From: an uncultured Lysobacteraceae bacterium
Lineage (GTDB): Bacteria > Pseudomonadota > Gammaproteobacteria > Xanthomonadales > Rhodanobacteraceae
Assembly: GCA_946482585.1 (NCBI GenBank)
Contig: CAMLSI010000011.1
Span: 1-28,016, forward strand
DNA: 28,016 bases
Direction of reading: 5' to 3'
How positions within the stretch are numbered: position 1 is the first letter of the stretch; the number at the start of each line of letters is the position of its first letter. Below the pieces are notes generated by a model, which saw nothing but the letters and a program-made list of their open reading frames with translations, had not been told where the DNA came from and made no database searches. Below are positions 10,145 to 20,049 of the stretch, piece after piece. A program made the position numbers and the translations under genes.

Positions 10145-10191
10145 CGTCGCCATACGCTGCCGTCCTGTGACGCAGTACATGGTTCTTGACG

Positions 10192-10216
10192 AAAACGCCG
10201 CGAAAGCGGCGTTTTT
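10192..10216 (+). terminator. Rho-independent terminator after rpiA
   Basis: ACGCCGC (10195-10201), loop GAAA, GCGGCGT (10206-10212), flanked by AAA before and TTTT after. It is a textbook intrinsic terminator 48 bases after the rpiA stop. Confidence 0.9.
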
Positions 10217-10291
10217 CGTTCGCGGCCATGTTCGCCTGCCGCACGATGCCCCGTTTGTTTCGACGTATCTCTTCCCTGGGAGATCGCACTC

Positions 10292-10570
10292 ATGCGACGT
10301 CGAGTCCTGCTCGCCGGCGTGCTGCTTTCCTGCACCACGTGCGGTGCTGTGCATGCCCAGTATCCTGCCGGCGGTCCTTTCGCGATCGTCAACAGCACGG
10401 TCGATTCGGGCGCCGGCGAAAGCACCGGCGATACCTACCGCGTGCGATTCACCGCCGGACAGCCCGATGCCGCCTACTCGGCCGGCGGCACCTTCGAAGT
10501 TCGCGGCGGATTCTGGGGATCGCGCAGCAATCCGCCGACCGACGAGATTTTCAGCGACGCTTTCGAATGA
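10292..10570 (+). CDS. Small secreted protein with C-terminal IFSDAFE tail
   Basis: The 92-residue product has an N-terminal signal peptide (basic MRRR, hydrophobic core, likely cleavage after AVHA near residue 22). LLSC at 11-14 is a poor lipobox. The mature part holds one copy of a pattern I recall from secreted bacterial proteins, with TAGQPDAAYSAGGTFEVRGGFW near residues 54-75. It ends DEIFSDAFE, almost the same as the unrelated nuclease at 17995. GGGAGA lies seven bases before the ATG. The stop overlaps a possible ATG of the next gene (ATGA at 10567-10570), so the two are probably an operon. Function is unknown; the tail may be a sorting or surface-retention signal. Confidence 0.8.
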   Translation: MRRRVLLAGVLLSCTTCGAVHAQYPAGGPFAIVNSTVDSGAGESTGDTYRVRFTAGQPDAAYSAGGTFEVRGGFWGSRSNPPTDEIFSDAFE

Positions 10571-10581
10571 GGACGACCGCC

Positions 10582-11808
10582 ATGAACGCACTCCGCTGCG
10601 CGCTGCTCGGCGCGCTGCTCGCTGCCGCACCCGCTTTCGCCGACACGACATTCACGTATCAAGGCGAGCTCACCAACAGCAGCGTGCTCGCCAACGGCAG
10701 CTACGATTTTCGCTTCATCCTGTATTCGGCCGATCTCGGCGGCACGCAGATCGGGCCGATCGTCACGCGCAACAACGTGGCCGTGAGCCAGGGCGTGTTC
10801 ACCGTGCCGCTGGATTTCGGCTCGGTCTTCGGCAACGAGGCGCGCTTTCTCGAGATCGCGGTCAAGCCCGGCGGCGCGCCCAGCTTCACGCTGCTGTCGC
10901 CGCGCCAGGTGCTGACGCCCGCGACACACGCGCTGGGCCTCGTACTGCCGTACGCGACGACGTTCGACACGCCGAACTACGGCCTTTTTCTGCAGAACAA
11001 CGGCGACGGCGACGTGGTGCGCGCCGACTCGACCGGGAGCGGCTACGGCTTCATCACGGTCGGCGGCACGGAAGGCGGCGGCATCTATTCGTCGGTCGGC
11101 GCCAATGGCAGCGGCAGCCAGCATTCGGCCGTGACCGGCTACAACACGAGCAGCGGATCGAACCAGCGCTATGCGGCCGAATTCGAGCTCACGAACGCCG
11201 GCAGCGTCCGCGCCGCGATCTACGCGCGCACGTCCGGCACCGGCCAGGCCATCGACGCCGAGGTCAATGCCAACACGACGGGGACGGCGCTCTTCGCGCG
11301 CACGACGAGCAACCTCAGCGGCAGTTACGCCGGTTCGTTCGCCGGCCCCGTCACAATGTCCTGTGCACCGGGCAGCTGCAACACCACGCACGCGCTGCGC
11401 GTGACCGGCAATACGCAGATCGTCGGTACGCTGTCGAAATCCGCCGGTTCGTTCAAGATCGATCATCCGCTCGATCCGGCCGGCAAGTATCTGTCGCATT
11501 CGTTCGTCGAATCACCGGACATGAAGAATCTCTACGACGGCGTCGTCACGCTCGATGCGAACGGCAACGCGCGCGTGGACATGCCCGACTGGTTCGAAGC
11601 GCTGAATCAGGATTTCCGCTACCAGCTGACCGGGATCGGCGCCGCCTCGCCGAACGCCTACGTCGCCGAGGAAATCAAGGACAACAAGAGCGCCGAGGAC
11701 AAGGGGCGCTATCTCGCACCGGAAGCGTTCGGCAAATCACGCGACGCGGCGATCCACCGCGACGACGCCGGCCTGCCCGCGATCAATCCGCCGGCGATGC
11801 AGCAGTGA
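10582..11808 (+). CDS. Secreted fibre-like protein with peptidase-S74-like-region C-terminal module, apparently shortened
   Basis: The 408-residue protein has a signal peptide (cleavage likely after AFA, residue 19). A TYQGELTNSSVLANGSYDF domain follows, running to about SPRQVLTPATHAL near residue 115, as seen in many exported bacterial fibre-like proteins. The middle is rich in Gly, Ser, Thr and Asn (about 120-285). The end carries a conserved module, from VTGNTQIVGTLSKSAGSFKI to YLAPEAFG. In family members I remember, about 30-40 residues lie between AEEIKDN and the AEDKGRYL-like segment; here they are absent. The ATG at 10582 is chosen for AGGA eight bases upstream; ATG at 10567 is the alternative. 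No enzyme motif is seen and the function is unknown. The call name reflects resemblance to fibre proteins only. Confidence 0.75.
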   Translation: MNALRCALLGALLAAAPAFADTTFTYQGELTNSSVLANGSYDFRFILYSADLGGTQIGPIVTRNNVAVSQGVFTVPLDFGSVFGNEARFLEIAVKPGGAPSFTLLSPRQVLTPATHALGLVLPYATTFDTPNYGLFLQNNGDGDVVRADSTGSGYGFITVGGTEGGGIYSSVGANGSGSQHSAVTGYNTSSGSNQRYAAEFELTNAGSVRAAIYARTSGTGQAIDAEVNANTTGTALFARTTSNLSGSYAGSFAGPVTMSCAPGSCNTTHALRVTGNTQIVGTLSKSAGSFKIDHPLDPAGKYLSHSFVESPDMKNLYDGVVTLDANGNARVDMPDWFEALNQDFRYQLTGIGAASPNAYVAEEIKDNKSAEDKGRYLAPEAFGKSRDAAIHRDDAGLPAINPPAMQQ

Positions 11809-17994: not shown

Positions 17995-20049
17995 TTACTC
18001 GAAGTCGTCGGCGAAGATCAGGTCGACGACGGTCGGGCAGTTCACGTTGTCGATGACGCAACGCGCCCATTCCGGATGATCGATGAAGGGATTGCGGTTG
18101 CCCTGGAAGGTCTGGACCATCGCGTTGCGATTGCGGTCGTAGTCGTCCGGCGGATCCTGGTCGTTCCAGTCGAGCAGCACGGTCTTCAGACCCATGTAGG
18201 CGATGCAGCCGCCGCAGGTCGTCGCGTCCTTGCCGACGATGAGGCTGCGGTTGTCGGTGATTTCGAGGTGCGGTTCCGGCGCGCCACTGACGTTGGTGCC
18301 GCCCTGATAGCGTACGACCATGTAGAGCACCGCGCGCGCCATGTCGCCCTTGCGGAAATCCCAGACCTGGAACGTGTTCGCGTTGAAGTAATTGCTGCTC
18401 GTCCCGCCCGTGCCACCGACGCCGTGATTCGCGGTGGTCGGCCGCGCGGTGCAGCCAGGACACAGGCCGTAGGGGCTGTTGCCGCGATCGGAGTTGTAGC
18501 CCACGTGCGAGGCGTACAGCATGTGGCCGTCGGTATGCGGCGGATTCGGGCGACCGCCGGAATCGGTCGGATTCGGGAAGCCCAGCGATTTCGGCCAGGT
18601 GTGCTCGCGGTTGTAGTTCGCCGCGCCGCTGGTCTGCTTCGGATACGACTCGTTCTTGTAGACGTCCCAGACCTTGGTCGCATCGGTCGGATCCTCATCC
18701 GCCTTGTTCATCACGGTGTAGGTGTCGCCGTAATGGATCGAGGTGTGGTCCTTGATGCGGTTGTGCAGCCAGGCCTTGAGCGCGGGACCGCTCGAGGTAT
18801 CGACGCCGGCGTAGTAGTCGTCGAGCGACGCCGCGGTCTCGAAGACGACGACGACGTTCGCGCTCATATCCTGCACGGTGCCGTCCTGGTCGTGCACCTT
18901 GTTGGCCACGATGGTCAGGGTGCACTGTTCCAGAAGTCCCAGATCCACGTCGGGATTGAGCTGGAACGACACCGGACCGCCGCCGGCCAGCGCCGTGTGC
19001 GCGCCGGTGTTCGCGCAGCTCAGCGTGTACCAGCCCGCGTCGACGGTGACGGGCTCGGAGAACGTCACCGCGAGGTTCGCGCTGCCCGGGAAGCCGTGCG
19101 CATTGTTGGCCGGCGTGGTCGACGCGACGCTCGGCGGCAGATCGCCGGCCGTGCTGAAGCTCATGCTGAAATCGGCGGCCATTTCGTCGATCGTGCCGTC
19201 CTGGTCGCTGACCTGATCGGCGATGACGGTCAGCGTGCAGGTCTCGCCGCTCGCGAAATCGACATCGGGATTCAGGGTGCGCGAAGCGCCACTGCCCGTG
19301 GCGAGCGCCGAGTGCGTGCCGCTGATCGTGCACGACAGCGTGAACCAGGCGCTCGTCGTCGTGACCGGCTCGCTGAAGGTCACGACGATGTCGACGGTGT
19401 TCGCCTGACCCGTCGCGTTGTTGGCCGGCGCCGTCGAGGCCACGGTCGGCGGCACGTCGACCGGCGGGCCGAAGCTCTGGCTGGTATTGCAGTCGCCGAA
19501 GGTATGCGCCGCGCTGCCCTGCCAGGTGAACTGGCCGTAGTCGCTGCCCGTGCCGCTGAGCTGCAGCGACGTGCCCGGCGCCGTGGAATTGGTTTCCATG
19601 ACGCCTATGTCGACGCTGGTCATTCCCTGCGCGGGACCCGAGCTCGCGGTCGTCGTGCCTTCATAGCTGAGAAACTGGACGACGGTGCCCGCGTTGTCGA
19701 CGAGGGCGATCGCGTCGCGTTCGCCGTTCTGCACGCCGTTGGTCGCGTACGTCAGGACCTTGATCTGCTTGCTGCCGCAGGTGCTCGATGCCGCGGTGGA
19801 CAGCAGGTCGTCGTCATACGGCGCGCCCGCATTCTGTGTGTTGCCGTTGTAGAGCACGACGCGCCAGTTGCTCAGGTCGACGCCGATCGGCGCAACGACC
19901 TCGACAGACTCGCCGACGTCACCGGAGCCGGTGCTGTCGTCGTAGTGAATCTCGTTGATGAATACCGCGGTATCGGCCATGGCCGGCGCGGCAGCCAGCG
20001 ACAACAGCGCGAACGCCGCGCCGCCGAAGGCCCGGAAACGAAACGACAT
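17995..20049 (-). CDS. Secreted endonuclease I-family nuclease with lamin-tail-like and Ig-like domains
   Basis: The 684-residue protein has a signal peptide (cleavage after AMA, residue 25). A lamin-tail-like domain follows at about 27-185 (VFINEIHYDDSTG, LSNWRVVLYNG). Two SbsA/Big_5-type Ig-like domains at about 195-300 and 300-405 each begin PP-T/S-VAST-x-PANNA and contain VTFSEPVT. The endonuclease I domain spans about 405-675, with active-site NREHTWP (catalytic His483, bases 18595-18612), then HMLYASHVGYNSDRGNSPYG and QGNRNPFIDHPEW. It ends DLIFADDFE. Such extracellular nucleases degrade DNA for nutrients or matrix and NET escape. The paired cysteines fit an exported protein. The ATG at 20049 gives a proper signal peptide. 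A terminator follows. Confidence 0.92.
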   Translation of the reverse strand: MSFRFRAFGGAAFALLSLAAAPAMADTAVFINEIHYDDSTGSGDVGESVEVVAPIGVDLSNWRVVLYNGNTQNAGAPYDDDLLSTAASSTCGSKQIKVLTYATNGVQNGERDAIALVDNAGTVVQFLSYEGTTTASSGPAQGMTSVDIGVMETNSTAPGTSLQLSGTGSDYGQFTWQGSAAHTFGDCNTSQSFGPPVDVPPTVASTAPANNATGQANTVDIVVTFSEPVTTTSAWFTLSCTISGTHSALATGSGASRTLNPDVDFASGETCTLTVIADQVSDQDGTIDEMAADFSMSFSTAGDLPPSVASTTPANNAHGFPGSANLAVTFSEPVTVDAGWYTLSCANTGAHTALAGGGPVSFQLNPDVDLGLLEQCTLTIVANKVHDQDGTVQDMSANVVVVFETAASLDDYYAGVDTSSGPALKAWLHNRIKDHTSIHYGDTYTVMNKADEDPTDATKVWDVYKNESYPKQTSGAANYNREHTWPKSLGFPNPTDSGGRPNPPHTDGHMLYASHVGYNSDRGNSPYGLCPGCTARPTTANHGVGGTGGTSSNYFNANTFQVWDFRKGDMARAVLYMVVRYQGGTNVSGAPEPHLEITDNRSLIVGKDATTCGGCIAYMGLKTVLLDWNDQDPPDDYDRNRNAMVQTFQGNRNPFIDHPEWARCVIDNVNCPTVVDLIFADDFE

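Follow-up and report, generated by a model that had tools for sequence, protein, structure and literature searches.

The window analysed here is a stretch of 28,016 nucleotides of DNA from an uncultured Lysobacteraceae bacterium, and it codes for two exported proteins, P0001 and P0002, that carry the same kind of tail at the C terminus. The two genes and their features are as follows.

10292..10570, + strand: P0001, a 92-residue exported protein with a "GGFW" mini-domain, without a Pfam family
10292..10357, + strand: predicted Sec signal peptide of P0001 (MRRRVLLAGVLLSCTTCGAVHA), a sequence reading with an inferred cleavage site
10541..10567, + strand: C-terminal tag DEIFSDAFE of P0001, followed by the stop codon at 10568-10570
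17995..20049, - strand: P0002, a 684-residue exported nuclease with a sub-threshold LTD, two Big_5 and an Endonuclease_1 domain (Pfam)
19975..20049, - strand: predicted Sec signal peptide of P0002 (MSFRFRAFGGAAFALLSLAAAPAMA), a sequence reading
18070..18786, - strand: Endonuclease_1 domain of P0002 (PF04231, residues 422-660; Pfam, E 3.2e-35)
17998..18024, - strand: C-terminal tag DLIFADDFE of P0002, followed by the stop codon at 17995-17997

As an earlier note on this DNA had observed, both tails lie directly at the stop codon (DEIFSDAFE-stop in the 92-residue protein, DLIFADDFE-stop in the 684-residue one), both N termini read as signal peptides, and the two proteins are otherwise unlike. 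They have no Pfam domain in common, P0001 giving no match at all in the Pfam scan. The sequence TTYNNNGAYNNNTTYGA was found twice in the window, at the ends of P0001 and P0002 only, and in 100 shuffles of the window the DNA of the degenerate core matched 0.03 times on average, with no shuffle containing two matches. We also looked for a known family that would cover the tail, and no NCBIfam or Pfam match of either protein extends over it. In the structural model of the nuclease, the only segments with pLDDT below 50 are residues 1-24 and 675-684, so in this model the tail hangs free of the nuclease fold. Tagging is not general among exported proteins here: an ORF that overlaps the gene of the 92-residue protein (window positions 10186-11808) includes a tail-less protein that looks exported.

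The tail recurs among the relatives of both proteins, two families picked independently of it, in which 132 of 160 proteins are tailed. It is present in 113 of 121 proteins of the nuclease family (the query and the best 120 of 1648 matches, among which Tahibacter proteins, 84% identical, are the closest named relatives) and in 19 of 39 proteins of the 92-residue family (the query and all 38 matches), the other 20 ending otherwise. Some relatives of the 92-residue domain (P0028-P0032 and P0036) have YLPLV-like ends, possibly the C-terminal signal of another group.

The form of the tail was read from 59 tailed ORFs in 40 regions of 7 genomes, regions that had been picked for holding tails. The consensus is D-[LVI]-I-F-x-[DN]-G-F-E, nine residues. 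The region pattern and the ORF rule fix both F residues and the acidic end (E or D) and favour I (found at -1 in 56 of the 59), D or N (at +2 in 57) and G (at +3 in 38); D at -3, present in 50 ORFs, and [LVI] at -2, present in 51, lie outside the selecting pattern and rule. Among the 65 motif occurrences in these tail-picked regions, 48 are at the exact C terminus, 15 within 1-15 residues of it and 2 internal. Extensions beyond the tail reach 14 residues, and tandem duplicated tails occur in three ORFs (L163:6428-8725, L176:8717-9733 and L179:10479-12158). Short histidine-ended extensions were seen on some tails (L018, L023, L024; P0063, P0073, P0081, P0088, P0096) and suggest that there may be a second terminal motif.

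A C-terminal transmembrane helix, sought as a hydrophobic 19-residue window past residue 80, was found in 0 of the 59 ORFs, and in place of the basic C-terminal cluster described in PMC3237569, 46 of the 59 finish on the motif's acidic final residue with no extension past it. On these counts, the likeness to PEP-CTERM and GlyGly-CTERM minus the helix and the basic end, which had been proposed from the window alone, holds. In the GlyGly-CTERM/rhombosortase, PEP-CTERM/exosortase, LPXTG/sortase and MYXO-CTERM/myxosortase systems, as outlined in PMC3237569, one C-terminal module likewise occurs on many unrelated exported proteins, and these systems are likewise lineage-limited, with up to dozens of proteins per genome; unlike them, the IFxDGFE tag is about nine residues long and has neither membrane helix nor basic cluster. 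The CTDs of the T9SS of Bacteroidota are likewise helix-free C-terminal signals read by an outer-membrane machine, but they are described as Ig-like domains, whereas IFxDGFE is a short flexible peptide of Gammaproteobacteria. We saw no T9SS-type folded domain here, as the tail has pLDDT below 50 in the nuclease model and no CTD model is among the NCBIfam families listed (25 of 46) for the 52 proteins scanned. T1SS substrates are not known to carry an N-terminal Sec signal, and most tail carriers have signal peptides.

The carriers of the tail were clustered after cutting off the last 25 residues, and the 59 fall into 32 clusters. They are largely unrelated outside the tail, as expected of a general C-terminal sorting signal. 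By a home-made rule, a signal peptide with no later membrane helix is present in 50 of the 59 tailed ORFs vs 146 of 411 neighbour ORFs; a stricter first rule, too strict by eye, gave 35 of 59 and 112 of 411. The enrichment of signal peptides that the earlier note had suggested testing is seen in these carriers. The family scans covered 52 proteins, namely the two of the window and 50 of the 59 carriers (the other nine carriers were left aside, either because their frames were cut or split or to keep the set short), and 25 of 33 Pfam and 25 of 46 NCBIfam families were listed. Among the families listed, we found FG-GAP in 5 of the 52 proteins, Big_5 in 3, reprolysin-like M12 in 3, subtilases in 2, Endonuclease_1 in 2 (one of them the nuclease of the window), choice_anch_Q in 4 and choice_anch_I in 2. 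M36 peptidases gave one match each to the T9SS-, rhombosortase- and myxosortase-dependent models, the T9SS-dependent model being the best.

We take the choice-of-anchor and M36 model names to mean that different groups put different sorting ends on these proteins, and in the carriers of these families IFxDGFE occupies the place of the sorting ends of other groups. As such ends include surface-sorting ones, to judge by the model names, the tail might serve surface retention: the proteins would leave through a T2SS, the additional T2SS described below being no more than the usual exporter, and the tail would then dock them on a partner at the outer surface. Extensions and tandem tails are also easier to reconcile with a binding motif than with one that depends on the carboxylate, but the 40 neighbourhoods surveyed in 7 genomes yielded no partner gene, and we consider this reading rather unlikely.

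Whether a given protein carries the tail varies with the lineage. The 80 named nuclease loci comprise 26 in which a tail was read, 48 without one and 6 that were unreadable. All readable loci of Xanthomonas, Lysobacter, Luteimonas, Pseudoxanthomonas and Stenotrophomonas lack the tail, those of Tahibacter, Pseudofulvimonas, Wenzhouxiangella and Dokdonella have it, and Chiayiivirga has one tailed and one untailed copy. The nine-residue tag is well supported as a modular, helix-free and new C-terminal element. We found no description of it in the open-licence literature (PubMed Central full text), where matches to tail strings were judged chance letter runs.

The spread of the tail was followed with an exact-end pattern, the DNA for I-F-x-[DN]-x-F-E-stop, with the reversed pattern as a control. 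In the order of the window, taken as that of the Pseudofulvimonas genome G006 and sampled as 249 genomes drawn evenly and including genomes reached via Xanthomonadaceae and Dokdonella loci, the pattern gave 603 matches in 70 genomes, up to 41 per genome, vs 2 for the control. Enrichment of the motif at protein ends, whose absence the earlier note had named as a refutation, is thus found across the order, and the idea of a terminal recognition signal has withstood the part of that refutation that can be computed. Within the 20 genomes reached via named loci, 11 had an exact-end match (control 0), and the 9 without were picked as Xanthomonas, Lysobacter (two), Luteimonas, Pseudoxanthomonas, Stenotrophomonas, Arenimonas, Silanimonas and Wenzhouxiangella. 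Chance, or a C-terminal domain inherited from a common ancestor and without a role as signal, has in its favour the shared clade and nothing more; set against the 603 vs 2 matches, the 32 clusters of carriers and orthologs that are tailed or untailed by lineage, it is hardly credible.

The class was sampled with 370 genomes, and 24 of them matched, including G006 and G030, which are known to belong to the order. The remaining 22 have 26 matches vs 16 control matches in the whole class sample, and the unbroken I-F-x-[DN]-G-F-E is in none of these 22; beyond the order, the tail pattern hardly exceeds its control. Possible real tails outside the order include two in G420 and one in G362, with the ends IFQNDFE, IFLDSFE and IFKNSFE.

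A gene that does accompany the tail is gspC. We defined a strong GspC as a PF11356 match with E below 1e-12, a cut placed in a gap of the observed values. Strong GspC was present in 64 of the 70 genomes of the order with at least one exact tail vs 23 of the 179 with none (Fisher p 1.5e-32, uncorrected for kinship), in 36 of 37 with at least five, and in 54 of 56 with at least two, the kind of co-occurrence with a secretion gene that the earlier note had suggested testing; a candidate T2SS, as expected for T2SS substrates, is encoded in these same 54. A broad pattern counted anywhere in the genome gave strong GspC in 79 of 84 genomes with at least five matches vs 8 of 165 with fewer. Among the first 30 places listed for it, a stop lay within 6 residues in 9 of the 16 from strong-GspC genomes and in 3 of the 14 from other genomes. 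This pattern carries more noise than its reversed control, so we let the exact-end pattern lead.

Exceptions run both ways. Fewer than five broad matches were found with a strong GspC in G076, G090, G097 and G155 (the last with 3 exact tails) and with a strong but divergent GspC in G196, G213, G223 and G239, and at least five broad matches without a strong GspC in G064, G075, G104, G125 and G149; real-looking tails without a strong GspC occur in G058, G099 and G104. The most useful exception is G090 (locus L404), with an intact gspC-D-E-F locus and one doubtful motif match.

T2SS in general was discarded as the partner of the tail, as GspD was above the cut-off in 56 of 58 genomes, tail-less ones included. 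All 11 tail-bearing genomes checked (G002, G003, G006, G012, G013, G023, G081, G100, G124, G139 and G157) have two GspD, one adjoining gspC and one elsewhere, which we take for the Xps type. With GspD general and a second copy beside gspC, the tail tracks one additional T2SS locus and not T2SS overall, although two GspD above the cut-off were also found in the tail-less G015 and G215 and in G169, which has 1 exact tail. The T2SS-tail link is a correlation. Being found mainly in genomes with a second T2SS gene set, the tail may be a simple address label.

The locus itself recurs with a similar layout, its gene names being our reading of the sequence. We found gspC, gspD and gspE together in L148 and L396-L405, L396 being the locus of a relative of the window's organism, with gspF next to them in L148 and L400-L405 and none recognised in L396-L399. 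One side is flanked by rhlB, trxA and rho (L396, L398, L400, L401, L404, L405 and, less clearly, L397) and the other by ftsE and/or ftsX (L148 and L400-L405), while in G023 (L399) the gspC locus is at a different place. Pseudopilin-like ORFs were absent from the fetched gspCDEF loci except for one prepilin-like ORF about 5 kb away in L402, so the locus of the tail may be an incomplete T2SS. The non-tail second T2SSs of the tail-poor G196 and G239 are located elsewhere, with pseudopilin-like ORFs in the fetched region.

The second T2SS of Xanthomonas, which we take to be the one named Xcs, is likewise a further T2SS with a PDZ-bearing GspC. Its GspC is divergent, with E about 1e-26 vs 1e-47 to 1e-98 for the tail type, and exact tails number 0 in G017 and 1 in G169.

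Kinship was considered with a tree built from rpoB of 119 genomes, both traits being scored in 118. Tail and GspC agree in 107 of the 118 rows, with 8 changes of the tail and 7 of GspC (5 with the four divergent GspC set absent) and three clades largely without both. Both traits were largely lost jointly in about three lineages, with exceptions both ways. A Pagel-type test of correlated evolution gave LR 17.8 (p 0.0014), or LR 22.9 (p 0.00014) with the four divergent GspC set absent. Among independent pairs, 1.6-2.6 agree on average and 0.0 go against, with a non-significant median sign-test p of 0.25-0.5.

The machinery, given as unknown in the earlier note, now has a candidate in the additional gspC-bearing T2SS locus, on the strength of co-distribution, while rhombosortase does not track the tail. 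Unlike in GlyGly-CTERM, rhombosortase was above the cut-off in only 1 of 36 tail-rich genomes vs 2 of 26 tail-zero ones, although four more tail-rich genomes (G045, G120, G157 and G140) come within 11 bits below the cut-off. These counts bear on another explanation, in which the tail would be a tag for an unlinked protease or transpeptidase cutting at [DN]-G and the T2SS correlation would mirror lineage history. Asx-Gly processing sites resemble the [DN]-[GSDN] core, and in the two window families 119 of the 132 tails have D or N at the core position and 100 have G next. Besides D and N, the core position can be S, H, G, Y or A, and besides G the following one can be A, D, S, T, N or Q, a variation that goes against cutting there, as does the distribution of rhombosortase, the one processing enzyme covered by the search, and we regard a processing tag as improbable. 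Genes beside the tail carriers were set aside as machinery too: in the 40 neighbourhoods of 7 genomes, the clusters from at least three genomes are an ABC-type ATPase, an ECF sigma factor, a Ser/Thr kinase and a partly tailed family.

The GspC of the tail-type locus has a PDZ fold. Pfam matched PDZ, at E up to 0.01, in all 17 scanned GspC of this type, with 14 above a curated cut-off; 4 of the 10 GspC in the first-scanned set, part of the 17, are from genomes without an exact tail. In the AlphaFold model, a membrane helix and an HR-like domain are joined by a C-terminal domain modelled for the most part with high confidence, and its best Foldseek matches are the EpsC PDZ, the PulC PDZ and the GspC HR domain. 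We also tried PDZ as the feature separating tail-bearing from tail-less GspC, which it does not do: divergent GspC from tail-less genomes (L210, L212 and L216) have PDZ above the cut-off in 3 of 3, so PDZ alone cannot account for the distribution. DegS-peptide complexes are among the Foldseek matches of GspC as well, and periplasmic PDZ proteases, general in Gram-negatives, bind terminal peptides, so the tail could be a handle for periplasmic quality control or a chaperone, apart from any crossing of the outer membrane. Such a handle is very improbable for a tail that is essentially limited to one order and missing in several lineages of that order.

Our preferred reading remains that the tail is a linear C-terminal tag sending periplasmic proteins to the additional T2SS; it fits the distribution best, and we give it somewhat better than an even chance. 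The carriers would enter the periplasm by their N-terminal Sec signal peptide and fold there, with the flexible nine-residue tail staying outside the fold. The additional T2SS (gspC-gspD-gspE(-gspF), mostly beside rhlB-trxA-rho or ftsE-ftsX) would recognise the tail, most likely through the periplasmic side of GspC, with PDZ as the natural candidate, or the N domains of the secretin, and the tailed protein would then cross the outer membrane. That secretion needs the tail, that the additional T2SS is the reader and which of its parts reads are points that we infer; the computation itself supplies the tag and its modularity, the export of its carriers, the co-distribution with this GspC, the recurrence of the locus and the PDZ fold. 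The extensions and tandem tails are ill-suited to a strict C-carboxylate PDZ ligand.

T2SS recognition of folded substrates is a long-standing open question, and PMC11981180, PMC7949064 and PMC12369372 indicate that no common linear T2SS signal is known. According to PMC12369372, the GspC PDZ is needed for some Vibrio substrates, and in VesB/EpsC of Vibrio and PelI/OutC of Dickeya it helps choose periplasmic T2SS substrates, the information lying in Ig/Fn3 folds with no linear universal signal in the view of its authors. Reading of the tail by GspC is a reasonable guess by analogy with that work (PMC12369372), and unlike in VesB and PelI, the tag is linear and common to dozens of proteins. That a T2SS of this order reads a linear nine-residue tag, and that grafting it onto a periplasmic protein suffices for GspC-dependent secretion, has in our estimate not quite an even chance. 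If true, it would run against the general view that T2SS substrates have structural signals only, and it would let part of the secretome be read from the sequence for Tahibacter, Dokdonella, Pseudofulvimonas and uncultured lineages related to them. With a short tag that a genome can hold on dozens of its proteins and whose distribution follows one T2SS locus, the recognition question becomes directly testable by deletion and grafting.

Last, five of the seven genomes of the neighbour survey have, close to a tailed gene, a gene pair for a Ser/Thr kinase and an ECF sigma factor (L150, L148, L176, L140 and L165), and this pair is perhaps a regulator of exported proteins.
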